Below, in pieces: positions 42,023 through 63,785 of a DNA stretch of 64,000 nt. The stretch is from Armatimonadota bacterium. GTDB taxonomy: Bacteria; Armatimonadota; UBA10988. Location of the stretch: positions 1 through 64,000 of the forward strand of contig JACRKZ010000031.1 in assembly GCA_016235455.1 (NCBI GenBank), read 5' to 3'. Numbering within the stretch: position 1 is the first letter of the stretch; the number at the start of each line of letters is the position of its first letter. The notes under the pieces were generated by a model. The model ran no database searches. It was not told the origin of the DNA and worked only from the letters and a program-made list of their open reading frames with translations. A program made the translations under genes and the position numbers.

Positions 42023-45000
42023 ATGCGTGTGAGGCGATCGAGCCTGGGTTGGAGCGTTCTGCTCCTGGTGTCGCTGGTGACGGCCGTCGCCGCGAAGACG
42101 TCGCATGAGTTCGTGGGGGCCCAGGGCCCGGCGTTCATGCGGGCGCAACTGCGCCAGGCCGGCTCTCGGCAGGTGGCGCCCACGGCCGACCACAACATCA
42201 CCCAGAGTGCCTCGGACAACATCGATCCCGTGTGGTCGCCCGACGGTACCCGTGTGGCCTTCGCCTCCAACCGCGCCGGCAGTTACGATATCTACATCGC
42301 TCGCTCGGACGGCTCGAATCCCGACACCGGCGCGCTGCTGACCCCCAAGCTGATCTCTGGCGTGGCCGGGGACGAGCGCTATCCCGCCTGGAACCCTGGT
42401 GGCCTGGACTTGGCCTACGTGCGCGGCAATGCCATCTACGTGCGCAACCTGCGCACCATGGCCGAGATCCAGCTGATCGACCAGCTCACCAACATCCAAG
42501 GCCTGACCTACAGCCCGGATGGTTCGCGCCTGGTCTTCTCCGCCCGCCTGGCCGGTGACTCCGATCTCAACCTGTACTGGGTGACCACTGACCCGCAATC
42601 CACCGACCCGGCCACCGGCAAGCCCCAGATGGTGCAGATCACCAATGCGGCGGGCAACGAAGTTCAGCCGAGCTGGTTCCCGAACTCCGACGCCGCGGAC
42701 GGGCGCCAAGTCATCTTCTCGTCGAACGCCAACGGCGACTACGACTTGTACCGCGTGACGCCGCCGACGGTCGGTGGTGCGCCGGTCGCCCTCACCGCGG
42801 CCAACCGCGTGCTGGGCAATGGCGGTGACGGTGACCAGTCGTATCCCTCTTGGGTGCGACCGGGCGGCTCTCGCGACGCCAGCTACGACCAGCCCTACTA
42901 CCTGCTGTATGCGGACAACGGCAACGGCAACTACGATCTGCGGGTCGTCGACGCCGACCTCGTGCCCGCGTCGGCGGTCGTGTACCAGGGCGCCGGCGAC
43001 CAGATTCAGCCGGTCGCATGCCCCATCCAGGACACAACCCACAATGCCTGCGTCTATTCGGGCAAGAAGACCGGCATCACCACGAACCAGCTGTTCGTGA
43101 TCGACATCTTCGACAACTCAGCGCCAATTCTGGGCGACGGCATCACCACCTCGCTGCCGTCGGTGAGCCCGCAACGCGGCTTCCCCGGCTCGACGGTCAC
43201 CATCACGGCCAAGGTCTACGACAAGGGCAGTGGCGTGGCTCCGGCGCCGATCGACTATGACGGCGACACCATCCCGGACTCTGGCGTGTGGGCCATCGTG
43301 CGCGTCGCTGACCGCCCGGTCTTCGCCAGGTGGACGACGGGCAGCACGGAAGTCCAGCCCAACCACATCAGCAACACCGTCTGGGCGCACGTTTCGAACA
43401 ACCAGATCGAGACCGACCAGGAGATTGTGGACATCCCGACCACCAGGCTGTCGGGGAACCTGACCACGGTACAGCCCAACGACCCCACCGAACTCGGGGC
43501 GGCCATCACTGGCCCGGGTGTCGCCTACCGTTTCACCACGCTGGATGCCATGTCCTTTGTGAACCGCGTCGGCCTGCCGTTGCGGGACGACGGTACGCAA
43601 GGCGACGCGGTGGCTGGGGATGGCATCTACACCGGCACCTGGCTGACCCCGGCGGAATCCCACGACTACTATGTGGACGTCGTGCCGGTCGATACCCGGG
43701 GCAACGCACCGGTGGACCCCGATCTGGGCATGGACGGTCTCGGCCGCACGAACCCGCTCGAAACCACATACCGCTACCCCGATGGTATTGCGACCTGCAT
43801 GGGGCCGTGGGCCATCGGCTATGACCACGTGGCGGGTTTCACCACTCGGCAACTGGACATCACGCGCAAGATTCTGCTCGTCAGCGACTACGGCTGCGGC
43901 CAGAAGTTCCAGGCCGCGGACTTCGCCACGACCGCCTCCGCGGCGCTGAGCCGCTACTGGCCGGTCGCGCTGCCAACAGAACACTATTGGTTCACCGATG
44001 ATGACGTGGCCGGCGCTGAGTCGATGACCGCCGCGCCGGTGATCACCTTCGGCAGCGGGGTCTCGGGCGTGCAGCGCACCATCGGCCCGAACCCCACGGT
44101 TTCAGCCGGCACACAAGTGCCAGACGGCCCCTGGTCGTGCGGCCCCTTCGCCCAGCTCAACGGCGGCGGCCAGCCCTTCGGCGGGCCGCAGGACGTTGAC
44201 CAGGTCGCCATCTGGCGGGTGCTCTGCCGCGGCCCGCTGGACGCTGGCACGCTCAACGCCTATACGCCAGCTCCGCTGGCCGCCGTTGAGGGCAGTCCCG
44301 TCCCGGCTCAGAACGGCGACCATATGGTCGTCTTCTCCAGCCCCTACACCGGCGATGTCTACGCGCAGCCAGGGACGCTCCTCGACGCCTCGACGCAAGC
44401 GCTGCTGCGTTCCTTCGTGGCCGCCGGCGGGCGCTTGGTCGTCAGCGGCATGGACATCGCCTGGGCGCTGACCAAGAACGGCACGCAGGCGAGTCCGTTC
44501 CTGCAGGATGTGCTCAAGGCGACGTTCATCTCGGATGCCACCCCGGGCGCGGTCAACTCACCGATCAGCGGCTATGACTCGGGCCGCACCCGCATGACAC
44601 CCCCGGATGCGCAGGGCGGCGTCGAGCCGCAGCTCTTCCAGTTCGGCGGCAGTCCGGTCGCTGCATCCATGACCGGGCGTCCGATGAACGCGGACGGGGG
44701 CGTCCCCGGCAACCTGGCCCTGCTGCGGATCAACGGCGGCGGCGACACACAGGGCGGCTGGCCTTTCTCGGGCGACGGCTGCCCGAACGCGTTCTTCATT
44801 GACAATGTCAGCCCCACTGGTGGCGGCCTGTCCACCTTTGACTACGCCGGCGGAGACGGCTCGGCCGCGGTCCGTTACATCGACCCGACAACCGGCTCGC
44901 GCGTGGTCTACTTCGCCTTCGGCCTGGAGTCGCTGCGGGCGGACTTCATCCTCCACGACCACAACCCCGCCCCCTACGTCGTCCATGGCATGGAGCATCG

Positions 45001-47452
45001 GGTCCGCCTGATGACCAACCTGAGCGACTACCTGCGCACGGGTGGCCTGCGCGGCAAGGTGGTCGACACGGACTCCTTGACCCCCATGGCCGGCATCACG
45101 GTCATCGCGCGCCGCGGCACGGGCACCAACGGCACCATCATGGGCCGGACCACCACGCTGTCCGACGGCACGTACCTCCTGGAAGGCCTGACGGTCGGCG
45201 ACTACGCGCTGTTCGTCCAGTCGGCGGAGTACACCGCCGACCACCGTCCGGTGCAGCGCGTCTACGGCGGCCAGGTCAGCCAGAACTCCGACCTGACCAT
45301 GCGCCTGCTGCGCTTTGAAACCTCCGCGCTGTACGGCACGGTGACCGGCCCGACCGGCACACCGGTGTCCGGCGCCACGGTCATTGCGTCGCTGGCCACG
45401 GCCGGCGCCAACCCGATGCAGGTGAGCACCACCACCGACACGGTCGGACAATACTCGTTGTCCGTGCCCAGCGGCACCTACACGCTGACCGCCAGCGCGG
45501 CGGGCTTCGCCTCGGCCACGCGCACCGACATCATCGTCGTGGCCGGCGCCGACCAGAAGCAGGACCTGCAACTCACGGCTTCACCGGGCGTGCTCACGGG
45601 CACGATCACCGGTAACGGCGCCGGTGTGGGCGGCGCCACCGTGGTGGCGACCAGCGGGGGCGTGACGGTCGGCAGCACCACCACCGCGGCGGATGGCACC
45701 TACACCATGTCCATCGCCGCCGGCACCTATGATCTGGTGGTCACGGCGCCCGGCTATCAGCAGGGCCGTAAGGCGGCCGTTGTGGTCACCAGCAGCGCCA
45801 CGACCACGGCCAATCTGGCCCTGACGGCGGTGGCGCCCGGCAGCATTGCCGGCCTGATCACCGTCCAGGGCTCCAACCAGGCGGTGGGCGGTGTCACGGT
45901 GTCCCTGCTGGCGGGCGGCGCGACGGTGCGCAGCACCACATCGGCTAGCACCACGACCACGCAGGGCGGCGTTACCTACAACTGGAAGATCGACGACGTG
46001 CCGGCCGGTCTATACGACGTGCGGGTGCAGGCGCCGGGCTACAACGCCCAGACCACCACGTCGGTGACGGTGACCAGCAACCAGTTGACGTCGGGCATCG
46101 ACTTCACGCTGCAGCCGCTGCACGTGTTCATCTCGTCGCTGTCCATGGCCTCGACGCCGTTCGACTACAGCACCTCGGCGCCCGACGCGCAGACGCTGAT
46201 CGACGACGACAACAATGCGGCCACCCCGCTCAAGATGGCGGCCTACAACACCGCCACGGCGGCCTACGCGTACTATCCGAACGCACCGGGCAGGACCTTC
46301 ACGCTGGGTCGCGGCTACTTCCTGAAGCTGGCCAACAACGCGGCACTGACCCGCGAAGGCGTCCGCGCGGCGACCACGGGCAGCGGCTACGATGTGCCTC
46401 TGCTCAACGGCTGGAACCTGATCGGCGCCGTCTACGAGTTCCCGGTTGATCTGTTCTCCTGCCAGGTGATCCTGGAGGTGAACGGTGCCGGCTCGACGGT
46501 CTACTCCTTCCAGGAGGCCGTGGCTCGCGGTCTGGTCGGTGGATCCATGTACACGCTGAACTTCGGTGTGTACCAGCAGGTCTACCGCTTCGACCCGTAT
46601 ACGGGCTACTGGCTGCGCGGCTACGTGCCGTCGGCGGCCACGACGCTCAAGCTGCGCGTCCCGCCGACGCCGCTGGGTGGTTCGTCCAACCGCGGCCGGA
46701 GCGCCGCGACGCCCACCGACTGGAAGGCGAGCATCGTCGCCAAGACCACGGACGGCGTGGCCTCACAGGCCACCTTCGGCGTGGGCGGCAACTCGGCTAC
46801 GGTGTACGACGGCGCGGACCGAGCCCAACCGCCGGCGCCGCCCGTGGCTGCTCAGTGGCTGGAGCTGGGCTTCCCGCACGCGGACTGGGGTCGCTACTCG
46901 GGGTCGTACCAGAGCGACATCCGTAGCGCGAGCCGCAGCCTGCGCTGGGAACTGGAGCTCAAGGGCGCCAAGCCGGGCCAGATGGTCAGCCTGAGCTGGC
47001 CGGAGCTGGGCGCCAACATACCGGGCAACCTGAGGGTCATCCTGGAGGACCTGCAGACGGGTGTGCGGCGCTCGCTGCGCCACACCAGCGGCTACACGGT
47101 CCGCGCCGACGGTAGTGCGCGGCGGCTGGCCATCATCGTCGAGCCGGCGGACAACCGCCCGGCGGTGACATCGCTGGCCTACACGGCGAGCCGCGCCGTG
47201 GGCGGCCAGGTGCACTTTACGCTCACCGCGGACCTGACTACCAACGTGGTGGTGCGTGGTCTGAACGGTGCGCTGGTCAAGACGCTGCTGCGCGATGAGG
47301 TGCTGACCGCCGGGCCCCAAGTGGTGGTCTGGGACGGCACCGACGACAGCGGCCGCGTGGCCCCCGACGGCACGTATCGACTCGAAGTGGTCGCCGTGGG
47401 CGACACGGGTGAGCAGGTACGGGCCACGACAACGGTTCGACAGCAGCGCTGA
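42023..47452 (+). CDS. Giant exported surface protein: beta-propeller, carboxypeptidase-regulatory-like repeats, shared C-terminal module
   Basis: 1809 residues with a signal peptide (MRVRRSSLGWSVLLLVSLVTAVAA) and GGGAG 8 bases before ATG. Residues about 50-320 are TolB/PD40-type propeller blades (SDNIDPVWSPDGTRVAFASN, NIQGLTYSPDGSRLVFSA, NEVQPSWFPN). Residues 370-580 hold Ig-like segments, and 600-1000 an unrecognised domain. About 1005-1365 has four carboxypeptidase-regulatory-like (CnaB-type) repeats (GLRGKVVDTDSLTPMAG, LYGTVTGPTGTPVSGATV, LTGTITGNGAGVGGATV, SIAGLITVQGSNQAVGG). The C-terminus carries the three-part module shared with the 49636 and 52724 genes: a G-W-N/G-Y-W-L domain (1369-1550), a D-W-G-x-x-x-G-x-Y domain (1560-1712) and a FlgD-Ig-like domain (1714-1809, VVWDGTDDSGRVAPDGTY). 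First gene of the envelope block; function unknown. Confidence 0.85.
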   Translation: MRVRRSSLGWSVLLLVSLVTAVAAKTSHEFVGAQGPAFMRAQLRQAGSRQVAPTADHNITQSASDNIDPVWSPDGTRVAFASNRAGSYDIYIARSDGSNPDTGALLTPKLISGVAGDERYPAWNPGGLDLAYVRGNAIYVRNLRTMAEIQLIDQLTNIQGLTYSPDGSRLVFSARLAGDSDLNLYWVTTDPQSTDPATGKPQMVQITNAAGNEVQPSWFPNSDAADGRQVIFSSNANGDYDLYRVTPPTVGGAPVALTAANRVLGNGGDGDQSYPSWVRPGGSRDASYDQPYYLLYADNGNGNYDLRVVDADLVPASAVVYQGAGDQIQPVACPIQDTTHNACVYSGKKTGITTNQLFVIDIFDNSAPILGDGITTSLPSVSPQRGFPGSTVTITAKVYDKGSGVAPAPIDYDGDTIPDSGVWAIVRVADRPVFARWTTGSTEVQPNHISNTVWAHVSNNQIETDQEIVDIPTTRLSGNLTTVQPNDPTELGAAITGPGVAYRFTTLDAMSFVNRVGLPLRDDGTQGDAVAGDGIYTGTWLTPAESHDYYVDVVPVDTRGNAPVDPDLGMDGLGRTNPLETTYRYPDGIATCMGPWAIGYDHVAGFTTRQLDITRKILLVSDYGCGQKFQAADFATTASAALSRYWPVALPTEHYWFTDDDVAGAESMTAAPVITFGSGVSGVQRTIGPNPTVSAGTQVPDGPWSCGPFAQLNGGGQPFGGPQDVDQVAIWRVLCRGPLDAGTLNAYTPAPLAAVEGSPVPAQNGDHMVVFSSPYTGDVYAQPGTLLDASTQALLRSFVAAGGRLVVSGMDIAWALTKNGTQASPFLQDVLKATFISDATPGAVNSPISGYDSGRTRMTPPDAQGGVEPQLFQFGGSPVAASMTGRPMNADGGVPGNLALLRINGGGDTQGGWPFSGDGCPNAFFIDNVSPTGGGLSTFDYAGGDGSAAVRYIDPTTGSRVVYFAFGLESLRADFILHDHNPAPYVVHGMEHRVRLMTNLSDYLRTGGLRGKVVDTDSLTPMAGITVIARRGTGTNGTIMGRTTTLSDGTYLLEGLTVGDYALFVQSAEYTADHRPVQRVYGGQVSQNSDLTMRLLRFETSALYGTVTGPTGTPVSGATVIASLATAGANPMQVSTTTDTVGQYSLSVPSGTYTLTASAAGFASATRTDIIVVAGADQKQDLQLTASPGVLTGTITGNGAGVGGATVVATSGGVTVGSTTTAADGTYTMSIAAGTYDLVVTAPGYQQGRKAAVVVTSSATTTANLALTAVAPGSIAGLITVQGSNQAVGGVTVSLLAGGATVRSTTSASTTTTQGGVTYNWKIDDVPAGLYDVRVQAPGYNAQTTTSVTVTSNQLTSGIDFTLQPLHVFISSLSMASTPFDYSTSAPDAQTLIDDDNNAATPLKMAAYNTATAAYAYYPNAPGRTFTLGRGYFLKLANNAALTREGVRAATTGSGYDVPLLNGWNLIGAVYEFPVDLFSCQVILEVNGAGSTVYSFQEAVARGLVGGSMYTLNFGVYQQVYRFDPYTGYWLRGYVPSAATTLKLRVPPTPLGGSSNRGRSAATPTDWKASIVAKTTDGVASQATFGVGGNSATVYDGADRAQPPAPPVAAQWLELGFPHADWGRYSGSYQSDIRSASRSLRWELELKGAKPGQMVSLSWPELGANIPGNLRVILEDLQTGVRRSLRHTSGYTVRADGSARRLAIIVEPADNRPAVTSLAYTASRAVGGQVHFTLTADLTTNVVVRGLNGALVKTLLRDEVLTAGPQVVVWDGTDDSGRVAPDGTYRLEVVAVGDTGEQVRATTTVRQQR

Positions 47453-47542
47453 CGCGCTGCCTGAAGGAAGCGAGCCGGGCCTGCCGAAATGGCTGGCGCG
47501 GGTCGCGGCGGAAGACTGAGCGAAGCTGCGAGGGAGTCTGAC

Positions 47543-49603
47543 ATGAGACTGGTCAAGCGATTGCGGCGGCATCCGCTGACTCGCCCACTGGCGTGGGCGG
47601 TGCAGCTTGCGCTGCTGGCAAGCACCGGCGTGCTGGCGCCGCCGGCGGCGGCACAGGATATCGAGGCGAAGCGCGCGGTAGTGCTGGACTTCGGCAACCT
47701 GGCCACGGCCTCGCCGTTGGCTGGCGACGAGGCGGCCGCAGCCTTGAGCTTGGCTCTGGTGCAGCGTCGCTACGAAGTCACGCCGCGCAGTGAGGTGCAA
47801 ACGCGCCTCAAGGCGATTGGCGTGCGCGCGCCGTTCGAGCCTGACGAGATCAAGCTCATCAAGAACGACCTCGACATTCGCGACCTGTACTCCGGCAGCG
47901 TGATCAGCGTGGACGAGAAGATCGGCGCCAAGTCCTCGGTCGAAGTGCTGCTGCGCGTCGAAGTCTACGACGGCGACACCGGCGACATGGTCAACGGTGG
48001 CTACGGCAAGGGCTTCGAGGTGCTGAACAGCGCCAACATCGCCGACCGTGAAGCTGGTTTGGCCAGCGCCATCGAGCGCGCCGTCGCGCAGGCCTTGACC
48101 CGCATCGATGCCCGCACCCTGATCCACGCCGCGGTCATGTCCTACGCCCCGCCGAACCGCGTGCTGATCAACAAGGGTCGCAAGCAAGGCGTGCTGGAAG
48201 GCATGGAGTTCAACGTCTTCCGCACCAAGGCCGATCCCGAAAACCCGAACCGCTCCCTCACGGTGAAGGTCGGCCGCGTCCGGGTGCATGAGGCGTCGAA
48301 CGACGATGCCACGGCCTCGGTCATCGAGATGACCCAGGGCATCAATACGCACGACGAGTTGCGCGAGGTCTTCCGCCTGCCGTCCATCTCCGCCAGTCAG
48401 GCGCAGTCAGGCAACCTGCCTGACCTGGGTCGGGCTCCGGCGCGCGGTGGCGCGGGCAACGGTGCGTGGCTAGCGCCCGTGGCTGGCGTCGTGGCCGGCA
48501 TCGGCCTGCTCGGCCTGCTAGTCGTGTTGGCCGGCACTTCGACCAGTGACTCGCCGTCGGCGCAGGCCACCGGGGCTTACCTCCGCCAGGCCGCGCCGGG
48601 CCAGAACCCGTCCGTGGAGGTGGCCTGGGGCGATCGCAACTACGCGCCGCCCAAGCGCTTCATTGGCGGCTACCTGCTGTACCGTGGCATCTCGCAGTCG
48701 TTCGCGGCGCTGACCGGCGACGCGGTGGGAGCGGTGCCTGGCGCCAACCAGCGCAAGTGGGCGGACGACCCGACCTGGGTGGACGTGACCACCACGATTC
48801 CGCTGCGCTACGAGCGCATCACCGCCACAGACGTGGAAGTGGTTGAGACGACGCTGGATGTGCGCATCGTGCACCAATCGCCGCAGCCGGGCAAGACCTA
48901 CTACTACAAGGTCCGGCGCCTCGGTCCGCCGATGGCGGCGACGGCACCGACCGTGTTCGCGCGCACCGCGACGGGTGGCAACCTGTCGTCACGGCTGAAC
49001 AGCCGCTCGGCGCAGATGCGCCAGGCCTCCGCCGGTCGCGTGCTGCGCAGTGGTGGCAACGTGCACATCTCGCGCGTTGGCCTGCCCATGATCACCCATC
49101 GCCAGGTGACCAGCATCGATCCGGGCGCGAACTACGACGCGACGCTCGACCCCACCGTCGACAATGACATCGTCATCGACACCGACATGGGTCTGTCCGA
49201 CGCGACGGTGGCCATGGGCCCGGTGACCTACATGGTGCCGCCGGACCTGTTGGCGCCGTCGAACAACAACATGGCCCAGCGCGTGGACGACATCGGCTTC
49301 TCGTGGCAGGGCGTTCTGGGCGCCACGCAGTACGTCGTGCAGATCGCCACGGATGCCGACTTCTCGGCCTTGGCGTTCTCCAGCGCGGCGATCGCGACGA
49401 CCTCCACCGGGCAGTTGTCGTTCCGCTACGACAGCACGGCGGCGGGCTACCGCGCGCTGGCGGCGAACACACAGTACTTCTGGCGAGTAGGCGCGAAGTC
49501 CACCTTCGGCGGTCAGCGGGCGCCCGAGCCCAACGGCTTCGTCTTCAGCCAGGTCTATACGTTCCAGACCGCGGACCAGCCGCCCAGCAACCCGCGCCGC
49601 TGA
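47543..49603 (+). CDS. Exported CsgG/FlgT-like protein with internal hydrophobic helix and FN3-like domains
   Basis: 686 residues from ATG 47543 (GAGGGAG 6 bases before). A basic N-terminus and hydrophobic stretch end in APPAAAQ, an export signal. Residues 35-200 resemble the CsgG/TolB-N/LpoB-type periplasmic fold (AVVLDFGNLATASPLAGDEA ... YSGSVISVDEK). Residues 205-270 look like a FlgT C-terminal domain (RVLINKGRKQGVLEGMEFNV). A 25-residue hydrophobic, glycine-rich helix follows near 305-333 (WLAPVAGVVAGIGLLGLLVV), then two fibronectin-III-like regions to the end. The protein at 55640 has the same order of parts. It lies within the envelope block, 90 bases after the giant protein. Confidence 0.78.
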   Translation: MRLVKRLRRHPLTRPLAWAVQLALLASTGVLAPPAAAQDIEAKRAVVLDFGNLATASPLAGDEAAAALSLALVQRRYEVTPRSEVQTRLKAIGVRAPFEPDEIKLIKNDLDIRDLYSGSVISVDEKIGAKSSVEVLLRVEVYDGDTGDMVNGGYGKGFEVLNSANIADREAGLASAIERAVAQALTRIDARTLIHAAVMSYAPPNRVLINKGRKQGVLEGMEFNVFRTKADPENPNRSLTVKVGRVRVHEASNDDATASVIEMTQGINTHDELREVFRLPSISASQAQSGNLPDLGRAPARGGAGNGAWLAPVAGVVAGIGLLGLLVVLAGTSTSDSPSAQATGAYLRQAAPGQNPSVEVAWGDRNYAPPKRFIGGYLLYRGISQSFAALTGDAVGAVPGANQRKWADDPTWVDVTTTIPLRYERITATDVEVVETTLDVRIVHQSPQPGKTYYYKVRRLGPPMAATAPTVFARTATGGNLSSRLNSRSAQMRQASAGRVLRSGGNVHISRVGLPMITHRQVTSIDPGANYDATLDPTVDNDIVIDTDMGLSDATVAMGPVTYMVPPDLLAPSNNNMAQRVDDIGFSWQGVLGATQYVVQIATDADFSALAFSSAAIATTSTGQLSFRYDSTAAGYRALAANTQYFWRVGAKSTFGGQRAPEPNGFVFSQVYTFQTADQPPSNPRR

Positions 49604-49635
49604 GGACTGTCTAGGGCTTGGAGAGGAGCGCAGGC

Positions 49636-52600: not shown

Positions 52601-52713
52601 GCGATGCCAACGGTCGACCGGTGCCCAACGGCATCTACGTGTTGCAGGTGGTCGCGACGGGCGCGGACGGGTCCTTGGCTCGAGAGCTTCGCACGGTTCG
52701 CGTGATGCGGTAG
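49636..52713 (+). CDS. Exported protein with inactive clostripain-like (C11) domain and the shared C-terminal module
   Basis: 1025 residues, ATG 49636 with AGGAG 7 bases before and a signal peptide (MRKALFWLMAATVMVVARPGAAQ). Residues 27-440 follow the C11/clostripain fold: DWTVLVYLNGDS, NVVVQWDR, HYALILSGPGTGW and LDALLCDTGGSATVEVA. Active C11 enzymes have D-H-G-S-G-W and F-D-A-C there. Here P160 replaces the histidine and G220 the cysteine, so it should not cleave peptides. An Ig-like segment lies at about 450-550. The C-terminal three-part module follows (555-755, 773-918, 928-1025), ending in the FlgD-Ig-like DGCDANGRPVPNGIYVLQVV. 32 bases after the previous gene, 10 before the next start. 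Confidence 0.83.
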   Translation: MRKALFWLMAATVMVVARPGAAQTTADWTVLVYLNGDSTVRYEDASIRVFNALEQIGSTQAVNVVVQWDRGPGDDVLTAANPADATQAWATTRRYLVVADPAQTGLTPDTLTAAATRIASPALVDLGEVDMGQQASLVDFYTWTAARFPARHYALILSGPGTGWQPRSQHRGMLFDTTTVSTGPTDPSAFLTNAELTGALTAIKSQRSGLNLDALLCDTGGSATVEVATQATGLVDSYLGEFLDRNGNGGLNYDTLVSSLNTALPLTAATVQTWLGSVATTYLGSYGTGTARLGGAQSVTAGVYRMGNLPSLVTACDDLAKALDADLLTTAPGLFRVLSTVQRGRPADFSGDYIDLKHFAELCQTEFAATQTIVDAATALISAVTAVQAGDVTAASAATDIDVSNFNGVAVYFPGELAAYDSNYPTGCDFGQTEWPTLIQGLYTLYSDRNPPVITLITPTNGTTILENPPTIQVSIVDPDAIGGVNADSVSLTFDGVVVPKANYSFSSETGVLTYTPANALGATSHTFIVGASDLSGNAATPTTGNFRISVATLSTGIQTFSLPRLLTAAQNDPGLVFGASNFAMARWVPGLSGSDKYRLYPDSYASFLPPDCSTSVSNPVVTRAPAGLGYWVRVKQSRPLQTLPGTPVTLSEYGIRLLTDGSSPNWNMVANPYDTPAISLASAFIQLVDGRRLTFRQAIDQRYTPGVLFSYVPNESNANAPGRYDFSDAGAGQLIRLQAHWLKVNTACSLVVQSGLSSRAAVPSASARALPRDGWSLALWATADSKANAYSDGRAYEAKDRLVLGQSSDAQNGYDHALDVAGPPAMPGGVALRAVHGDWGLESGRYVRDYRAAGMSTEWDVEVAAPAGEVSLTWPDLRAVPGDIDLVLTDLTNGQSRALRTTASYGFTHSGGPRAFRVTAQRRNGAGLLVTNVTTQSGRGGDSVDIGYTLSRAASVHVQVTSLSGRSLRSLGPVDSATGRGRLAWDGCDANGRPVPNGIYVLQVVATGADGSLARELRTVRVMR

Positions 52714-52723
52714 GATGGTAAGC

Positions 52724-55612
52724 ATGAAACGGCCCAAGCACACAATCCTGGCCCTGTTCGCCTGCCTGGCTGTGGCTGGCTCGGTCTCGGCGCAGACCTA
52801 CCAGACCATCAGCGGGACAGCGACGAACTCGCAGCCCGGGACGTTGTTCTCCACCGTGCGCAACAACTACCTCCAGGTGGACGTGCGCGTGCCGGGCATC
52901 GTGCCCGTGGTCAATCCCGGAGGCACGACGGGTCCCACGCTCGTTGGCTACAGCAACTACCGTGGTGGCCGGGCCTGGATCAGCACCGTGCAAGGCGATC
53001 CGTTCACCGCCAACGACAACGGTGTGCGCATCGCCGGGCCGACCGCCTACTCGACATGGTGCGGGGTGCAGTTGCAGGATCTGCCCACGCCGGCCGATGA
53101 CACGCCGGCGATTGAGTACCATGAGTGCGAGACCAGCTACGAGCCGGTGAACAATCCGAACCAGGACATCTTCTCGCAGTACCCGACGGCGAGCAACGAT
53201 GAGGTCCGGTTTGCCTGGCAGATCCGCAAGGACCTGCCCTCGCTGACAACCATCCACGCCAACCCAAACGTGGCCACCAACGGTGGTCTGGCGGGCGTGA
53301 ACTCCGCTGTGCAGTGCCTCGTGTCGCAGTCCTATCGGCTGGTCGGCGACAAGGTTCGCGTCGAGATGCTGGTCCAGAACGTCAGCAATGCCAGCGTGCG
53401 CATCGGCGGGCACATCTACATCAACCCGACCTTTGGCAGCGGCGTGCGCAACGGTGATCGGTTCCACTTCCAAGGCGTCAAGCAGACCATCGACCACGAA
53501 ATTACATTCCCCTCGACCAATGCCGCGGACGACCCGTCGTTGCGTCGCATCCCCACCTTCTACCGTACCTTCGACGATGAAGCCGCCCCGTCGGTCATTC
53601 TGGGTGGCCTGTTCGACGGCGCCGACATCCGGACGACGGCGTTGAGCGCCGGCCCGCCCACGAGCGCCATGCTGGTCGACCAGAACCTGATCACAGGCAA
53701 CTGGTTCGCCTACACGCCGGCGTCGGGCAGCCTGATCGGCGCCAACTTTGGCATCATGCTGCGCTGGGCTCCGACCTTGGTCGCCCCCAACTCGGGACGT
53801 CGGTTCATCACCTACTACGGCCTGGGCGGCACGGATGCCGACTACGACCAGCCGTACATCTTGTCCGCCGAGGCGCCGTTCAGCCTGTCGCTGGCCAATG
53901 GCGACGACCCCAACACCACCTTGGTGGAGACCAGCGACAATGTGTACCGGGCGCCGAACCCGTTCACCGTTCGCGCCTCCGTCTTCAACACCTCGGATCG
54001 GGCCATCAGCAATGTGGCCGTGGCGCTGTCGCTGCCGGCCGGCATGAGCCTGGCCAGCGCCGGAGACACGCTCAGCAAGTCCATTGGGCTCGTTCCCGCG
54101 AGGTCCGAGCAGGTGGTGAGTTGGCAGGTCAAGACGACATCGACCCTCGAGCCGGGCGTGCGGACAGTGTCCGTGTCGTCTTCCGGCACCAGCCTGACAT
54201 CGAAGATCGTGGACCGCGAGATCGGCATTCCGGCGCTGCCGCAACTGCTCTTCCCGAACGTCGCCAGGCGACTGGACATGATCTCGGTGCCCTACGATTT
54301 TGCCAACCGCGACATCCAGCACGTGCTCAACTCGTTGGGCACGGTCGGAGTGACCGGCGGCGGCAACGCGGCGGTAGCTCGCTACAATGCCGCGGCGCGC
54401 TCGTACGGGTACTTCCCGGATCCCTATATCACCAGTGTGGTCCCGGGCGAAGGCTTCTGGCTCTTCAATGGCGCTCTGACAGACCTGCGGCTGCCCACCG
54501 ACAAGGCCCAGTTGCCGCTGGCGCAGTCGGTGTCGGTGGCGCTGAGTACCGGCTGGAACCAGATCGGCTGCCCATTCACGGTGCCGGCACGGCTGTATGA
54601 CTGCGAAGTGGTGGGCAGCGACGGCATCGTCCGCAGCTTCCTCGATGCGGTCGGCGCGGGCCAGGTCAAGCCTGTCGTCTACGAGTACCAGCCCAACGAC
54701 CTGAACCCCACGGCCCAGGGCAGTTATCTGTTCGCCGGCGATGACGCCACCATGCTCAACCCGTGGCGCGGGTACTGGCTGCGTTCGCTGACGGACGTGA
54801 ACCTGGTCTTCAACGCCAACTCCCTGGTCGGACCGTTCCGCTCCAGCGGTCGCAGCCCATTGGCGCTGCGCGGCGGTTGGGAGTGCGCGCTGTCCGCTGA
54901 CTCGCCCAACACGGGCAAGCGCCCGGTGCGCCTGGGCTGCGATAGCACCTCGCTGGATGGCTACGACAGCCGCGACGTTGAGGCGCCGCCCACGCTGCGC
55001 TCCGAGGGCGACCTGCGCCTCTCGGTGCTGCGTGAGGACTGGGGTCGCGACGCCGGCCGCTACATGCGTGATATCCAGTCGGGCACTCGAGCGCAGACGC
55101 GATGGCGCCTGCTGGCCGAGTGTGACCGGGCCAACGAGGACGTGACGCTGCGGTGGAACCTGCGGACGGTGCCGGCCGATGTGCAGCTCACTTTGGTCGA
55201 CCTGGAGACGGGGGCCCAGCGGCACTTGCGCACGACCTCGGCCTTCAGCTACAACACAGGTGCGACGCCGCGGCCGCGGCTGTTCGAGGTGATTGCCACC
55301 AAGGGCGGCGGCCAGGGGCTCAGCATCCCATTCATGCAGGTGGCTGGCACGCGCGGTCGCGCGGTGACCGTGGCTTTCGGCCTGACCTCGGCCGCGACGG
55401 TCGACGTTGTGATCGAAAGCCCGACCGGGCGACGGGTGAAGCTGGTTGCTGCATCAATGGCTGCCACGGAAGGTCAAAACAGTGTATCCTGGGACGGCCT
55501 TGACGAAGGGGGCCGCCCGGTGCCTGCTGGGATGTACCGTTGCCGGGTGCTGGTTTCGACGCCGGATGGCCAACGGGCCATCGCTGAGCGTCTGGTGCGG
55601 ATTGGCCGGTAA
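52724..55612 (+). CDS. Exported protein with unique N-terminus and the shared C-terminal module
   Basis: 962 residues from ATG 52724 (AGGATGG 6 bases before; ATG 52715 is an alternative that starts 1 base after the previous stop). Signal peptide MKRPKHTILALFACLAVAGSVSA. Residues about 25-400 are beta-rich with an asparagine/threonine-rich look and no recognised family. Residues 410-510 look like a CARDB-type Ig domain (FTVRASVFNTSDRAISNVAV). The shared module follows: 514-705 (MISVPYDFANRDIQHVLNSL; NPWRGYWLRSL), 714-860 (EDWGRDAGRYMRDIQSG) and 862-962, FlgD-Ig-like (VSWDGLDEGGRPVPAGMY). Likely displayed or secreted. Function unknown. Confidence 0.82.
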   Translation: MKRPKHTILALFACLAVAGSVSAQTYQTISGTATNSQPGTLFSTVRNNYLQVDVRVPGIVPVVNPGGTTGPTLVGYSNYRGGRAWISTVQGDPFTANDNGVRIAGPTAYSTWCGVQLQDLPTPADDTPAIEYHECETSYEPVNNPNQDIFSQYPTASNDEVRFAWQIRKDLPSLTTIHANPNVATNGGLAGVNSAVQCLVSQSYRLVGDKVRVEMLVQNVSNASVRIGGHIYINPTFGSGVRNGDRFHFQGVKQTIDHEITFPSTNAADDPSLRRIPTFYRTFDDEAAPSVILGGLFDGADIRTTALSAGPPTSAMLVDQNLITGNWFAYTPASGSLIGANFGIMLRWAPTLVAPNSGRRFITYYGLGGTDADYDQPYILSAEAPFSLSLANGDDPNTTLVETSDNVYRAPNPFTVRASVFNTSDRAISNVAVALSLPAGMSLASAGDTLSKSIGLVPARSEQVVSWQVKTTSTLEPGVRTVSVSSSGTSLTSKIVDREIGIPALPQLLFPNVARRLDMISVPYDFANRDIQHVLNSLGTVGVTGGGNAAVARYNAAARSYGYFPDPYITSVVPGEGFWLFNGALTDLRLPTDKAQLPLAQSVSVALSTGWNQIGCPFTVPARLYDCEVVGSDGIVRSFLDAVGAGQVKPVVYEYQPNDLNPTAQGSYLFAGDDATMLNPWRGYWLRSLTDVNLVFNANSLVGPFRSSGRSPLALRGGWECALSADSPNTGKRPVRLGCDSTSLDGYDSRDVEAPPTLRSEGDLRLSVLREDWGRDAGRYMRDIQSGTRAQTRWRLLAECDRANEDVTLRWNLRTVPADVQLTLVDLETGAQRHLRTTSAFSYNTGATPRPRLFEVIATKGGGQGLSIPFMQVAGTRGRAVTVAFGLTSAATVDVVIESPTGRRVKLVAASMAATEGQNSVSWDGLDEGGRPVPAGMYRCRVLVSTPDGQRAIAERLVRIGR

Positions 55613-55639
55613 TCAAGGATGAAGCGGAAGGACGGTCGC

Positions 55640-58600
55640 ATGATGAAGCGCTTTCTCGAGTCGCCCCTGGCGCGGCGCATCGCCTGGATGACCCTGACGG
55701 CACTGGCGGTCGGGTTGATAGGTCCGGCCGCACAGCGCGCCGACGCGCAAGAGGCGGTTCGCGGCGCCTACTTCGTGCCGTTCACGGCGGCCGAAGGCGT
55801 GGATGCTGAGACCCCCGTGCGCATTGGCAACGGCACCGCCGAACTGCTGCAGCGCATGAGCGGAGACCCGCGAGCGAAGCAGCCTTTGGCTGTGCTGCCG
55901 GTGGTTCCGGCGCTGGATGGCCATGCGTCTCTGAGCCCCAGCAACCCGATCGTCAAGCGCGCTCTGAGTGAGTCGGCGATCACCCAGGAGGAAGTCGACA
56001 GTCCTCCGACCGCCGCCGAGCCGGCAGCCGCTCTGTGCCGCAAACTCGGCCTCGGCTATGTCATTACCGGCAACATCGACCGCTACAAGGAAGGCCCCGG
56101 CGCGGACGGCAAGAGCCAGGTCGCCGAGCTGTCCTACACGGTCAAGCTGACCGAGGTGCTGCCCGAGGGTGCCGTGGCGCAGCCCCGGACCGTGCCGATC
56201 AGCGGCGTCAGCAAGTACACGGCGACCACCGACAAAGACAAGATCATCCTCCGGGCCATCCTGACCGACCGTGTCTCCCGCGAGATCGTCTCTCAGCTCA
56301 TTGAGTTGCCGGAACTGGCGCCTGAGCCCCAGACCGAGGTGCAGGTCAAGCCCAAGCCGGCCAAGGGCAGCAACGCCTGGGCCTATGCGGGCGTCGTGGT
56401 GGCGGGCATCGCCTCCATCTTCCTGATCTCCACCATCGGCGGCGGCAAGACCAAGGCACCGGCCAACCTGGCGGTGACGGGCGTGGCCGCGGTATCCGAA
56501 CAGGACGCGGTACGCATCACCTGGCTCCAGGCGCCGGCGGCGATCGGTTACAACGTGTATCGTCGACAGGTAGGCAGCCAGCCGTTGGTGTCGAGGGCCC
56601 TCCGCGGGCGCACCACGGCTGACGGCTTCACCGTGTTGCCCAATCCGCAGACCAACAGTGTGCCGACCGTGGTTGGCGGCAACCGGACCTCCTTCATCGA
56701 CACCACGGCCGTCAGCGGCGTGGTGTATGAGTACGCCGTGGCGGGCATGAACGCCAGCAACGTGCTTGGTGCTCGCTCCAGCTCCACGACGGCGGCCCGC
56801 ACGGGCGCCAACATCGGCGCCGCGCCGCAGTTGACGGCCTCGGCCGGCAACGGCTTCGTCTCCCTGAACTGGAGCGCCAGCAGCGCCTTTGTGACCGGCT
56901 ACTTCGTGTACCGGCGCCAGGGCGGCGTGCCCGACACCGTGACCGCGGCCGACCGCGTAGCCACGGTGACCGGCCGCACGACGTTCGACGACACGCCGTT
57001 GACCAACGGGGTGGAGTACACCTACGTGGTGCAGCCGTACACGCAGATCGGTACCGGCCAGAAGTTGATCGGCACGGACAGCAACCGCGTGACGATCGCG
57101 CCGATGGCTGGCGCGCCGCCGCAGGCCCCGCGCGGGGTGGCGGCCGTGGCCAGCAACCTCGGTGTGGTGACGGTCTCGTGGCAGTTCAACGCCGAGCCGG
57201 TGGCCTCCTATGAGGTGCTCCGACTGCGTGAAGCCACGACCCGGCAGCGCACGGTGACCGGCAGTTCCTCGTGGCTGCGTGGTCTACCCGTGGACTTGGC
57301 GGCGCGCGCGCAGACCGTACGCGTCGACCCGCGTCGGTCGCGCCAGATCGACCTCACTGGCTACAGTGTGGTGGGCAGTGTGCCCAGCACGCAGAACAGC
57401 TTCGTTGAAGGGCCTCTGCCCGACGGGCTCTACACCTACGCAGTACGCGCGGTGAGCAGCACCGGCGTGCGCGGCCCGGTGGGCGTGAGCACGGCGCTGA
57501 CGGTCTCGTCGCCGCCGGCGGCTCCGGCCGGAGTGACCGCTACTGGTCAGTCCGGGGCGGTGCTGGTAGCCTGGCAGAGCGCTGCCGGCAACGTGAGCGC
57601 CTATCGCGTCTACCGTAGTCTGACGGCCATCACCGCGTCGATGACCGGCCCCGCCACGGCGCCGGGCATCTCCCGCGTGACCGAAGTCAATCCGAGCGTC
57701 ACGTCGTTCAGCGACACCGGCGTCACCAACAATACCGTGTACTACTACGCGGTGACGGCGGTGGGCCAGGGCGGCACGGAGAGCCTGTTCGGCAAGGGCA
57801 CGGCGACCACGACCGGTGCGGTGGGCGTGCCCCACGCGGCGCCGGCCACGATGACGCTGGCCACCGACCGGCCGCTCATCTCGGCCAACGGCATGCACAC
57901 GGCGGCCATCACGGCCACCGTGCAGGACCTGAGCAGTATCGCGGTGCCGGGTGTCGAGGTCATCGTCACGGCGGACCGTGGCAGCTTCAAGGCGCCCCTG
58001 CCGGCCAACGCCAGCTACGTCGACGCCACGAAGCGTCAGGTTCGCTCGCTGACGGACGCCACGGGCAAGGTTGTGCTGAACTTCATGTCGGAAGTCATCA
58101 CGACTGCCGCGACGCAGGTGGTGGCCAATATCCAGGCCCGCGCCGCGGAGCTTCCGGTAGCGCAGCAACTGCAGTCGACCAGCGTGGCGATGCAGTCGTC
58201 CGCGCCGAGTGTGCTGCTCATGAGCCCCGCGCTGGTGTCGCTGACGGCCGACCAAGCTTCCACCCAGACGGTGGCGGCACGGGTCCTGGACAGCCTGAAC
58301 CAGCCGGTGCCTGACGGCACGTTCTCGGTGGACTTCAGCCTCAGCGCCGACAACGGCGAGTTGCGTCAGTCGGGCGACGTGCAGACCTATCCGTTCCAGC
58401 GCTACCCGACCACCATCACGGTGCCGGTGACCACCGGTCGAGCGACCATGGTGTACCGCGCCGGCCCGGCCAGCGGCACGTTGCAGATCAACGCGGCGGT
58501 GGCGGGTCTGCCCGCCGTAGCCTCGTCGGCGACGGTCCGGCTGTCGGCTGGTGAAGCGACGCAGGTGTCGTTCAGCCAGACCGGCACGACGCTGAACCAG

Positions 58601-58858
58601 TTGAACGTGCCGGTCAGCGGCTCGCAGGCCATCACGGTTGACGTGCGCGACGCGCAAGGCAACCGGGTGGGCGCGGGTGTGGCCGTGCAGTTGGCTGTGG
58701 AGCCGACGGGTGTGGTCACGATCCCGGCCTCCGGCGTGACCGACGCCAATGGCCAGGTTGCCCTGAACATCACCGGCGGCGCAGTCGTCGGCGATGCGAT
58801 CATCACGGCAACCGCCGGCACGTCGGCGGAAGGCCAGTTGGCAGTCCATGTGCGCTAG
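55640..58858 (+). CDS. Exported protein: N-terminal periplasmic domain, hydrophobic helix, FN3-like and invasin-like Ig repeats
   Basis: 1072 residues from ATG 55640 (AAGGAC upstream; ATG 55619 and 55643 possible). A signal region (RIAWMTLTALAVGLIGPAAQ) is followed by a TolB-N/CsgG-like domain at about 35-235 (GLGYVITGNIDRYKEG, VAELSYTVKLTEVLPEGAVA). A hydrophobic glycine-containing helix spans about 245-268 (WAYAGVVVAGIASIFLISTI). Three to four FN3-like domains follow (RITWLQAPAAIGYNVYRRQ; FVSLNWSASSAFVTGYFVYR; VLVAWQSAAGNVSAYRVYR). Then come three Ig domains of invasin/Big_1 type (ITATVQDLSSIAVPGVEVIV; VDVRDAQGNRVGAGVAVQLA). Same architecture as the 47543 protein. A terminator hairpin follows at 58882. 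Confidence 0.8.
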   Translation: MMKRFLESPLARRIAWMTLTALAVGLIGPAAQRADAQEAVRGAYFVPFTAAEGVDAETPVRIGNGTAELLQRMSGDPRAKQPLAVLPVVPALDGHASLSPSNPIVKRALSESAITQEEVDSPPTAAEPAAALCRKLGLGYVITGNIDRYKEGPGADGKSQVAELSYTVKLTEVLPEGAVAQPRTVPISGVSKYTATTDKDKIILRAILTDRVSREIVSQLIELPELAPEPQTEVQVKPKPAKGSNAWAYAGVVVAGIASIFLISTIGGGKTKAPANLAVTGVAAVSEQDAVRITWLQAPAAIGYNVYRRQVGSQPLVSRALRGRTTADGFTVLPNPQTNSVPTVVGGNRTSFIDTTAVSGVVYEYAVAGMNASNVLGARSSSTTAARTGANIGAAPQLTASAGNGFVSLNWSASSAFVTGYFVYRRQGGVPDTVTAADRVATVTGRTTFDDTPLTNGVEYTYVVQPYTQIGTGQKLIGTDSNRVTIAPMAGAPPQAPRGVAAVASNLGVVTVSWQFNAEPVASYEVLRLREATTRQRTVTGSSSWLRGLPVDLAARAQTVRVDPRRSRQIDLTGYSVVGSVPSTQNSFVEGPLPDGLYTYAVRAVSSTGVRGPVGVSTALTVSSPPAAPAGVTATGQSGAVLVAWQSAAGNVSAYRVYRSLTAITASMTGPATAPGISRVTEVNPSVTSFSDTGVTNNTVYYYAVTAVGQGGTESLFGKGTATTTGAVGVPHAAPATMTLATDRPLISANGMHTAAITATVQDLSSIAVPGVEVIVTADRGSFKAPLPANASYVDATKRQVRSLTDATGKVVLNFMSEVITTAATQVVANIQARAAELPVAQQLQSTSVAMQSSAPSVLLMSPALVSLTADQASTQTVAARVLDSLNQPVPDGTFSVDFSLSADNGELRQSGDVQTYPFQRYPTTITVPVTTGRATMVYRAGPASGTLQINAAVAGLPAVASSATVRLSAGEATQVSFSQTGTTLNQLNVPVSGSQAITVDVRDAQGNRVGAGVAVQLAVEPTGVVTIPASGVTDANGQVALNITGGAVVGDAIITATAGTSAEGQLAVHVR

Positions 58859-58881
58859 CCGCGGTGGCTAGCGACCAGAGC

Positions 58882-58909
58882 GCCGGGCCTCGGTTCACCG
58901 AGTCCCGGC
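58882..58909 (+). terminator. Terminator hairpin splitting the envelope block
   Basis: GCCGGG and CTCGG pair with CCGAG and CCCGGC around TTCA, with one mismatch between the two stems. GTTCGTGGTTTGTG follows. It lies 24 bases past the stop of the 55640 gene. Confidence 0.6.
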
Positions 58910-58949
58910 GTTCGTGGTTTGTGTCGCCGAGTCGAGGGCGCACACCCTC

Positions 58950-58978
58950 TGGCGCGGAGCGCGGCGGGAAGGTACAAT
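58950..58978 (+). promoter_or_regulatory. Weak candidate promoter for the LptD-like/PorV-like pair
   Basis: TACAAT (5 of 6) at 58973-58978 has only a poor -35 (TGGCGC) 17 bases upstream. Its position between the hairpin at 58882 and the GTG at 59059 is what suggests a separate transcript. Confidence 0.3.
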
Positions 58979-59058
58979 TCGGTGGGCGGCCAAGGTCGCT
59001 CATGCTGCCTGGCCCACCTGATGATGGTGCCGCTGGGCAGGGGTGGAGAGGCGGCTTG

Positions 59059-61056
59059 GTGCGACGCTGGCGCGTCACATATCTGGTAACGTGGCTAGCC
59101 CTGCTGGCGTGTGGCGCGGCAACGGGCGCCACCATTGACCTTATGGCCAGCCCCAGCCGTGTCCCCGCGGATGGCGTGAGTACCATCACGCTTTCGGCCA
59201 CTGTGCGTGAAGGCACCAGCCTGGTGGAGGCGCCGGTGGCCGTGCTGTTCAACACCACGGCCGGCGAGTTGTCGCCTCTGGGCGGGGCCCGCGGCAACGG
59301 CCAGCAATTGCGCGTGATGACCCAGGGCGGTCGCGCGCAGGCGACCCTGCGGGCGACCACTTACGAGACCTCCGCGCTCGTCACAGCGGCGCTGATCGAC
59401 CAGGCCAACGCGACCACGGCTCAGCGCACTGTGACATTCGGGTCGAGCGGCACCAAGCAGGTCTTCTACGACAACATCATCAAGGTGACGGGCGCCTATC
59501 TGGCCTACTACCCGGAAGGCTCGATGATGGTCATGGAGGTGCTTGGCGATGCCGCGGTCTCGTACCAAGGCGTCGAGATCCGGGCCTCGCGGCTGCACTT
59601 GGATGTGCGCGAAGACATCCTGGTCGCGCGCGACTTCCAGGGCCGGGTGAGCATCGGGCATGGTGCGCCGCCGTACAAGAGCGATCGCAAGAACGAAGCC
59701 GCACCTTACTTCGGCGACGCGCTGGTGCTCGACATGCGCACTTTCACCGGCGCCATCTTCAGCACGCAGAGCGGGCAGACCACGCACTTTACGGGACGCG
59801 AACTGAGGAAGACGCCGGCGGTGGAGTTGCCGACGGACGCCTTCGACCTGTACGACGTGAGCGGCGCGAAGTTGCAGATCAGGGCGCGGCGGGCGGTCGT
59901 CTACCCCAATGAGAAGATCCGCTTCGACCAGCCCAAGTTCTACATGGGCGACAAGAAGATTCTGTCCCTGCCGTACTACTTCGAGCCGTTGGGCTATTCG
60001 GCCATGGGCGGCGGCGGCTTTGCGCAGTTCGTCAACTACAGCTCGCAGGACGGCCTGCTGGTCAACTTCCCCTACTACTTCGACATGGGCGATCGCTCGA
60101 CGAACGAAGTGACGCTGTCGCGGGGCGAACGGTCGGGCGTGTTCGCGCGGCAGAATGGTTGGCAGGTGTACTACCGCCACCACGCCGACTTGCCGCAGAA
60201 CAAGGGCGACTGGGACTTCACGATCGACCAGATCGGGACGCAGTTTGGCGTGACCTATCAGCGCAACCAGCGGTTTGGCAGCAATTCATACAGCTCTTTC
60301 TCGCTGACCTGGCCAGAGCACCGCAACCTTTACTCGAATGCGAACCTCTATACCACCATAGGACCGGGTACGCTGAGCGCGACGGGCAATCTGGACAACC
60401 TGCTCGGCCCCGGCGGCGGAATCAGTAACAACCTGAATGTGGTGTGGCAGAGCTTCCCGATGCGCGTCAAAGCCATCGACTCGCGTTTCTCGGTGGCCCT
60501 GGGCACCGGGTTCAGCCATTCGCTGAGCCAGCAGGACCTATGGCGCCAAAGCGTGTCGCTGAGCTGGGACCACGATGCCTGGAACTTCGGGCCCAAGGCG
60601 TCGCTGGTGCCGTATGCGGGTCTGCGCTACCAGAACACCATCAATGGAGGCCAGGAGACCGCATTTACGTTCAACACGACGTACCGGCAGGACCTGGCCG
60701 AGGGCATGACGCTGGGGCTGGGTTACACGTTCGACAAGGCGTGGAACTCGCAGTACAAGGTGCCCGACCGGCATGTGTTCTCGCTGGACTGGCAGATGAC
60801 CAAGACCAAGCTGCGCGGTTACGCGTATGCCAACTACAACCTGGTGGACCAGGCACTATCGGCCTCGGTGTTGTTCGACTACACGCTGTCGCGCAACTGG
60901 GGCCTGCAGGCGCAGACCATCTACCAGAGCAGCTCGCTGGGCTCGTTCAGCGAGACGGAGCTGTGGGCGTACCGCATGTTGGGCGGTCGCGAACTGCGCT
61001 TGCGTTATAATCTGGAACGCGGTAGGATCTTCTTCGAGATCGACAACCAATTCTGA
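59059..61056 (+). CDS. LptD-like outer-membrane barrel protein with N-terminal invasin-like Ig domain
   Basis: 665 residues from GTG 59059 (GGAGAGG 7 bases upstream; ATG 59002 is a longer option). Signal peptide RRWRVTYLVTWLALLACGAATG. Residues 25-130 form an Ig domain (SRVPADGVSTITLSATVREG ... QATLRAT) like those closing the preceding protein. Residues about 135-300 resemble the OstA/LptA-type beta-jellyroll (GDAAVSYQGVEIRASRLHLD; YDVSGAKLQIRARRAVVYPN). The segment KKILSLPYYFEPLG is a typical LptD lead-in to the barrel, which runs to a terminal phenylalanine (FFEIDNQF). LptD inserts lipopolysaccharide in the outer leaflet. The Ig domain and the absence of obvious LptD disulfide cysteines make a different export substrate possible. 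Confidence 0.78.
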   Translation: MRRWRVTYLVTWLALLACGAATGATIDLMASPSRVPADGVSTITLSATVREGTSLVEAPVAVLFNTTAGELSPLGGARGNGQQLRVMTQGGRAQATLRATTYETSALVTAALIDQANATTAQRTVTFGSSGTKQVFYDNIIKVTGAYLAYYPEGSMMVMEVLGDAAVSYQGVEIRASRLHLDVREDILVARDFQGRVSIGHGAPPYKSDRKNEAAPYFGDALVLDMRTFTGAIFSTQSGQTTHFTGRELRKTPAVELPTDAFDLYDVSGAKLQIRARRAVVYPNEKIRFDQPKFYMGDKKILSLPYYFEPLGYSAMGGGGFAQFVNYSSQDGLLVNFPYYFDMGDRSTNEVTLSRGERSGVFARQNGWQVYYRHHADLPQNKGDWDFTIDQIGTQFGVTYQRNQRFGSNSYSSFSLTWPEHRNLYSNANLYTTIGPGTLSATGNLDNLLGPGGGISNNLNVVWQSFPMRVKAIDSRFSVALGTGFSHSLSQQDLWRQSVSLSWDHDAWNFGPKASLVPYAGLRYQNTINGGQETAFTFNTTYRQDLAEGMTLGLGYTFDKAWNSQYKVPDRHVFSLDWQMTKTKLRGYAYANYNLVDQALSASVLFDYTLSRNWGLQAQTIYQSSSLGSFSETELWAYRMLGGRELRLRYNLERGRIFFEIDNQF

Positions 61057-61069
61057 TGGGAGGGCTGTC

Positions 61070-61915
61070 ATGTCCAACCTGCGGCTGAAGCCGTGGCTCG
61101 TAGTATGTGGGTTGCTCGTCATGCCTTGGCGAGCGCAGGCGCAGGATACCTCCGGCGCTGGTTTCTTCCCGTTCCGGGGCAGTGCCCGGACGGCTGGTCT
61201 GGCGGGCGCCTTCACGGCTGTCGCGGACGACGTGGCTGGCCTGCAGTGGAACCCGGCCGGCATGACCCAGGTGGCCACGCGCCAGGCGGGTGTCAACTTC
61301 AAGGTCAACGGCGACGGTGGCGACTACCTCAACGTGTCGTACATCGAGCCGGTTCGCCAGGGCAAGTTCGGCGGCGGCTTCACCTACATCAACGCCACGG
61401 ACGGCGCTGGTCGGCGTGACAACGTCTTCCAGTTCACCTATGGCCAGGCGTTCACCAACGAGCTGTCGTTCGGCGCCAATCTGCGCTATCAGACGGCCGA
61501 CGCTGGCGCGACGACCGACCAGAACTTCTCGTTCGACTTCGGCCTGCTCTTCCGCCCCAAGCGCTACAAGCAGTGGGCTGTGGGCCTGACCGCGTTGGAC
61601 ATCAATGAGCCCAGCTTCACGGGCATCGGCCTGCAGAAGCGCATCTTCAACCTGGGCTTGGCTTACCACCCGGACGAGTACACCACGCTGGCCCTGGACT
61701 GGTACGACATCGGCTCGCTGGCCCATCGTGGCCAGGCGCGCTTCGGTGCCGAGCGCCAGGTGACCCGCAACATCGCGGTGCGCGCCGGTGTGGCGCAGGA
61801 CACCTTCGGCGTGGGTCTCTCGCTCATGTACAAGTACTTCACGTTCGACTACGGCTTCCAGCGCCTGTCTGGCGCGCCGGACATGAACATGATCAGCGTG
61901 ACCGCCAACTTCTGA
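61070..61915 (+). CDS. PorV/PorQ-family outer-membrane protein
   Basis: 281 residues from ATG 61070 with GGAGGG 5 bases upstream. Signal peptide to about RAQAQ. The signature ADDVAGLQWNPAG near the N-terminus matches the PorV/PorQ/UPF0164 group (A-D-D-x-x-x-x-x-x-N-P-A-G), a FadL-like 14-strand barrel. Alternating strands continue to a terminal phenylalanine (MISVTANF). In Bacteroidota, PorV shuttles type IX secretion cargo at the outer membrane. Homologues occur in other diderm phyla without known cargo. It follows the LptD-like gene by 13 bases and lies close to three proteins with C-terminal FlgD-Ig-like domains. Confidence 0.85.
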   Translation: MSNLRLKPWLVVCGLLVMPWRAQAQDTSGAGFFPFRGSARTAGLAGAFTAVADDVAGLQWNPAGMTQVATRQAGVNFKVNGDGGDYLNVSYIEPVRQGKFGGGFTYINATDGAGRRDNVFQFTYGQAFTNELSFGANLRYQTADAGATTDQNFSFDFGLLFRPKRYKQWAVGLTALDINEPSFTGIGLQKRIFNLGLAYHPDEYTTLALDWYDIGSLAHRGQARFGAERQVTRNIAVRAGVAQDTFGVGLSLMYKYFTFDYGFQRLSGAPDMNMISVTANF

Positions 61916-61938: not shown

Positions 61939-61972
61939 GACCGGCGCGGTGCCCTTGGGCGCCGCGCCGGTC
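61939..61972. terminator. Terminator hairpin between converging genes
   Basis: GACCGGCGCGG pairs perfectly with CCGCGCCGGTC (11 bp), with GCCC/GGGC inside. Only a short T run (CATTTGGG) follows on the plus strand. It closes the PorV transcript and could also serve the permease gene ending at 62052. Confidence 0.72.
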
Positions 61973-63758: not shown

Positions 63759-63785
63759 GGCGCTATGATAATGCCGGTGAGTGTC

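Follow-up and report, generated by a model that had tools for sequence, protein, structure and literature searches.

Seven consecutive genes for predicted envelope proteins, three of them giants with a common C-terminal module, raise the question of whether a single locus in a bacterium of the phylum Armatimonadota encodes surface proteins together with their own exporter, as the initial annotation proposed from an echo of type IX secretion (T9SS), or whether the genes are held together by a different task at the cell envelope.

Layout and conservation of the block

The stretch of DNA that was analysed (the window, 64,000 nucleotides in all) derives from an Armatimonadota genome of 6.5 Mb in 185 contigs. 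Reading of its open reading frames showed the block to be real, with seven genes at 42023-61915, all on the plus strand and packed with gaps of 1-36 bp, although the starts of genes 6 and 7 were amended. The signal peptide of gene 6 lies near a GTG codon at 59059, and gene 7 was taken to start at ~61070, 13 bp past gene 6, the longest-ORF start at 60827 not being used. The features are as follows.

42023..47452, plus strand: gene 1 (1809 aa), with signal peptide, TolB-like PD40 beta-propeller, choice-of-anchor X domain, four CarboxypepD_reg repeats and C-terminal module
46307..47449, plus strand: module of gene 1, profile match 1-382 (E 5e-108), FlgD_ig at the end, last residue Arg
47489..49603, plus strand: gene 2 (704 aa), with LpoB/CsgG-like N-domain, FlgT_C/TsaP-like domain, hydrophobic helix (residues 331-349) and FN3-type C-terminal part
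49618..52713, plus strand, likely start 49636: gene 3 (1031 aa), with clostripain-like C11 domain, Big domain and C-terminal module
51517..52710, plus strand: module of gene 3, full-length profile match (E 3e-113)
52715..55612, plus strand: gene 4 (965 aa), with signal peptide, uncharacterised N-terminal part, NEW3-like domain and C-terminal module
54446..55609, plus strand: module of gene 4, full-length profile match (E 2e-121), structure model of mean pLDDT 86.9
55619..58858, plus strand: gene 5 (1079 aa), with alpha/beta N-domain, hydrophobic helix (residues 255-273), FN3 domains and Big_1/invasin D3 domains
58864..61056, plus strand, probable start GTG 59059: gene 6, LptD by homology and predicted fold, with signal peptide, Big_1/invasin-D3 Ig domain, LptA-like jellyroll and beta-barrel
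59134..59439, plus strand: extra N-terminal Ig domain of the predicted LptD, conserved across the phylum
61070..61915, plus strand: gene 7 (281 aa), PorV/PorQ/FadL-like barrel, present at the locus in only some families
61939-61972, plus strand: hairpin directly 3' of gene 7, 15-bp stem, no T run (z -3.75)

The hairpin possibly marks the end of the operon; promoter and terminator scans of the sequence returned no consensus site. Upstream, a gap of 387 bp separates the block from a gene for an S1-domain protein. Such a gene is also found 5' of the block in genome G025, and in genome G003 a gene of similar length occupies a similar position (coordinates of the upstream genes of this type: window 39992-41635; L128:2516-4066; L047:17156-18775). 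Elsewhere in the window, 37616-39748 encodes a DNA polymerase I-like protein with a good match in its 5'-3' exonuclease part and a weak, partial polymerase match, while 63783-64000 holds the start of an ORF that by eye resembles a REP-associated transposase, a fragment without a Pfam match.

The genes proved to be neighbours in relatives also. A module gene is found at most three genes upstream of lptD (gene 6) in 26 of 31 loci, representing 17 of 20 families, where by our own estimate, with ~10 module carriers per genome and relatives that are not independent, well under one case would be expected by chance. The order module gene-g2-module gene-module gene-g5-lptD recurs in families f1, f11, f15, f21 and f25, and in slightly altered form in f5, f9, f22, f26, f27 and f30. 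Genome G003 was counted as negative because its locus came in two pieces, the full order being present there; in genomes G006 and G018 lptD has no module nearby. The block can be taken as an envelope operon of ancient origin in the Armatimonadota, and gene neighbourhood is a record of co-inheritance, not of mechanism.

Gene 7 is not a core member of this operon. Its initial assignment to the PorV family holds as a resemblance to PorV/PorQ, but the score against the family model is 54.5 bits where the cut-off is 90. Across 25 genomes the same model found matches in 12, none over the cut-off, and a PorV-like gene is located near lptD in three families only (f1, f3 and f16).

The N-terminal part of gene 1 has relatives at the same position in many other families, and the protein scores above the cut-off of a choice-of-anchor domain model; choice-of-anchor domains are paired with varying surface-sorting tails. 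Among nine relatives that were scanned, eight have a subtilase in the slot of gene 3; the ninth, which belongs to the same order as the window's genome, has a C11 domain there. Alignment revealed that the catalytic His and Cys of the C11 domain, identified by what we take to be the C11 catalytic motifs, are replaced in the window, as is the Cys in all three C11-type members aligned. Since the gene 3 peptidase domain is without its catalytic residues, no sortase-like enzyme is evident in the locus.

Genes 2 and 5 each encode one strong hydrophobic helix behind an alpha/beta N-domain, and in several families gene 5 ends just past the helix, in some with a Gly- and Pro-rich tail. Both had been described as CsgG/FlgT-like proteins with a helix and FN3 domains. 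The helix and FN3 parts were recovered for both, but a clear likeness of the N-domain only for gene 2, whose family profile matches LpoB (E 8e-6), TsaP (3e-5) and FN3; the gene 5 profile reaches LpoB at E 0.05 only, a likeness to LpoB/CsgG that is too weak to count. Gene 2 thus resembles the LpoB/CsgG/FlgT/TsaP proteins in an N-domain that matches LpoB and a later domain that matches FlgT_C and TsaP, whereas the proteins of genes 2 and 5 differ from these in continuing with the hydrophobic helix and then FN3 domains.

Gene 6 and the LPS pathway

What had been described as an LptD-like barrel is, by every test of homology and predicted fold that was made, LptD itself. A scan of the genome collection with the gene 6 sequence alone gave no match, and the sole match in a Pfam scan was a Big_1/invasin-type Ig domain. 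A profile built from 20 relatives matched solved LptD (7omm, E 8e-7) over profile positions 145-320, with positions 26-122 matching invasin/intimin Ig domains, and when an AlphaFold2 model of the protein (mean pLDDT 82) was searched with Foldseek the twelve best matches were all LptD chains (E 6e-13 to 1e-9). The gene is present as a single copy in its own genome and is matched in 54 of 61 genomes. In one genus the lptD matches are interrupted by one stop within the matched or open region (L038; G021:C3:56535-57824; G045:C1:1453465-1454757), which may be a frame or start artefact.

The Pfam LptD model (PF04453) matched none of 25 Armatimonadota genomes; among the controls it responds in E. coli and Caulobacter only, which indicates that the model does not cover distant LptD. 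Since LpxC and LptF/G are present in all 25 of these genomes but Pfam LptD in none, gene 6 probably represents the missing LptD of the phylum, and its predicted role is probably that of the phylum's LPS translocon. In genome G036, lptD is located near uvrB, two LptC-like genes, an ABC ATPase and LptF/G. The predicted protein shares with the LptD of Proteobacteria an LptA-like jellyroll and large barrel, its top Foldseek matches, and the presence of LpxC and LptF/G in the genome; it differs in its extra N-terminal invasin/Big_1 Ig domain, predicted to be periplasmic, in being missed by the Pfam LptD model and in being encoded with module-bearing giants. A literature search found no paper covering Armatimonadota and LptD together. 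The known job of LptD is the insertion of LPS, and hence no protein exporter is shown at the locus.

The C-terminal module and type IX secretion

The modules of genes 1, 3 and 4, each of ~382 residues and with ~30% identity, are full-length matches to one 382-position profile, so that the shared module described initially stands. Pfam covers only its last ~80 residues, as FlgD_ig. The profile was found in 57 of 61 genomes of the phylum, and in the loci examined all 62 distinct full-length copies end at most five residues from the stop, the last residue being Arg in 53 and Lys in two. Additionally, at least nine further proteins of the source genome end in the module; six of these were scanned and carry Big_1/invasin arrays, LamG, beta-helix, filamin or subtilase domains, and the other carriers in this genome appear from sequence to be adhesin-like. 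Neither of the outcomes named initially as refuting the proposed island, genes scattered in relatives or a genome lacking further module proteins, was observed, and that proposal has partial support. A fold search with the module returned generic Ig sandwiches only (TM-score about 0.2). At the profile level the PorU C-terminal domain is matched (6za2, E 1.5e-4), the match to PorZ not being significant.

Full-length homologues of the module are located at protein C-termini in KSB1, Marinimicrobia, Eisenbacteria and Cyclobacteriaceae. The tails of those from KSB1 and Cyclobacteriaceae pass the T9SS type A model (TIGR04183), while in those from Marinimicrobia and Eisenbacteria a type A match is detectable below the cut-off. 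The same model gave no match to window genes 1, 3 and 4, nor, at E 0.1, to gene 4 and one relative. The module resembles the type A domain and the FlgD Ig domain in its C-terminal position, its Ig region and its basic last residue, and departs from both in that ~300 conserved residues precede the Ig domain; this region is also present in the homologues from T9SS phyla. Its fixed C-terminal position, its Arg end and its homology to T9SS tails make a signal for sorting or anchoring the most likely role of the module, and the FlgD-like Ig fold can alternatively be purely structural. Record L219, labelled Alphaproteobacteria, also contains a full module, and record L228, labelled Dependentiae, a partial one; mislabelled MAGs or a wider spread may account for these. 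No paper on T9SS with FlgD, KSB1 or Marinimicrobia was found in a literature search.

The supposed echo of T9SS therefore stands for the tail, whose homologues end in type A or PorU-like sorting tails, but not for the machine. SprA, the translocon of ~2300 aa, and PorU were over the cut-off in all four module-bearing genomes used as positive controls (KSB1, Marinimicrobia, Eisenbacteria and Cyclobacteriaceae). SprA was over the cut-off in none of 21 genomes, nor in five Armatimonadota searched beside the controls, and in the same five PorU gave none over the cut-off and tail-only matches in two. The initial annotation had seen no T9SS core genes at the locus, and indeed neither SprA nor PorU was found in the window's own genome. 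GldM/PorM had no match in 25 genomes or in the own genome, with a weak model that misses three SprA-bearing controls; the model matches only the Bacteroidota genome among these controls, so this absence says little.

A second type of locus was found in which barrels of ~850-1270 aa with SprA-type repeats adjoin, or sit one gene from, a module gene (seven of 18 loci: L239, L241, L250, L254, L238, L240 and L249). LptC- and LptA-like genes, as called by Pfam, are present in three of the seven (L239, L250 and L254), and other neighbours include PEGA/CarboxypepD_reg proteins, a polysaccharide pyruvyl transferase (CsaB-like) and DUF5693. Together, the lptD operon and this second locus link the module to LPS-transport genes at two places. 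The SprA model detects 15 of the 16 barrels (best E 2e-21); among the matches listed, each covers a short stretch of ~35-140 residues and scores under the curated cut-off. A barrel profile gave no SprA among solved structures at E 10, and the barrels have about half the length of SprA or less. The ~1000-aa barrels were not accepted as SprA, the SprA matches being weak and short. The source genome encodes a SprA-repeat barrel without a module neighbour.

Explanations for the locus

The closest known parallel is the T9SS attachment complex of Porphyromonas gingivalis, which comprises PorU, PorV, PorQ and PorZ with A-LPS, and in which a protease and a beta-propeller protein attach cargo to A-LPS (PMC8545088). 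The Armatimonadota locus resembles it in having a C-terminal Ig-like tail on protease-type and beta-propeller proteins, a link to LPS and, in some families, a PorV/PorQ-like barrel. It differs in that SprA and PorU were not found, LptD is part of the operon and additional helix-bearing LpoB/CsgG-like proteins are encoded; moreover, the slot for the protease is taken by a subtilase or an inactivated C11 domain as opposed to C25, and the tail is unmatched by the type A model.

The reading that we tentatively prefer, at a probability of about 0.4, is that the locus provides LPS-coupled display or anchoring of surface proteins via a tail related to the T9SS CTD, with no T9SS translocon involved. 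The giants encoded by genes 1, 3 and 4 would be exported by Sec and carry a tail related to that of T9SS cargo, which would serve as sorting or anchoring signal, and by analogy with the P. gingivalis attachment complex their placement at the surface may be coupled to LPS. The tailed beta-propeller protein (gene 1), the protease or pseudoprotease (gene 3) and the gene 4 protein could assemble at an outer-membrane site centred on LptD, which the helix-bearing LpoB/CsgG-like proteins of genes 2 and 5 would link through the periplasm, with help from the PorV-like barrel in certain families. The genome's other adhesins with this tail would then be clients, and the first candidate for a protein translocon would be the SprA-repeat barrel that is often encoded beside a tail gene at the second locus.

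The main rival is a purely structural envelope complex, in which LptD is joined by scaffolds that bridge the periplasm or coat the cell surface, the module serves structure or docking and not secretion, and LptD is present only for co-ordinated envelope biogenesis. Such a complex is possible on the present evidence: the resemblance of the gene 2 family is to accessory proteins of the envelope (LpoB and TsaP/FlgT), the fold search yielded only generic Ig sandwiches, and the fixed order of genes 1 to 5 is as expected of complex subunits. However, the module is found elsewhere on many unrelated proteins (Big_1 arrays, LamG, subtilase), always at the C-terminus, and its homologues in other phyla end in a known sorting tail. 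It is also conceivable, if unlikely, that the module proteins leave the cell by an ordinary route such as type II secretion, for the cargo of which we know of no defining sequence signal, and afterwards bind LPS, or some other component of the surface, through the module. The complete genome of another member of the Armatimonadota, Fimbriimonas ginsengisoli, for which 21 type II secretion genes as well as LPS genes are reported (PMC4072686), is consistent with this route, which nevertheless leaves unexplained the linkage to lptD at one locus and to lptA/lptC-like genes at another.

A strongly diverged true T9SS, with the SprA-repeat barrels as translocon and the module as its signal, would account for the SprA-model matches of nearly all barrels and for their position beside module genes, but is improbable given the shortness of those matches and of the barrels themselves, the lack of a solved-SprA match to the barrel profile and the failure to find PorU and GldM in the Armatimonadota genomes searched. 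The island of cargo and exporter proposed initially, in which the LptD-like or PorV-like barrel exports the giants, retains the genomic linkage in its favour; however, gene 6 belongs to the LPS pathway by predicted fold and, in G036, by its neighbours, LptD exports LPS, a PorV-like gene is absent from most loci and no protein translocon was identified, such that this proposal is very hard to credit.

Returning to LPS-coupled display, a more specific version, in which the Armatimonadota combine secretion and anchoring of surface proteins with a T9SS-CTD-related C-terminal signal, a translocon other than SprA and LptD as a working partner, is doubtful at present. If it were true, sorting tails of the T9SS type would be older or more widespread than the T9SS machine, and the phylum offers a test of whether such C-terminal signals work without SprA. 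The module can serve as a marker when genomes of the Armatimonadota are searched for surface proteins, and the probable LptD of the phylum, missed by the Pfam model, is identified. Together these provide a molecular handle on how the surface is built in an almost unstudied diderm phylum.
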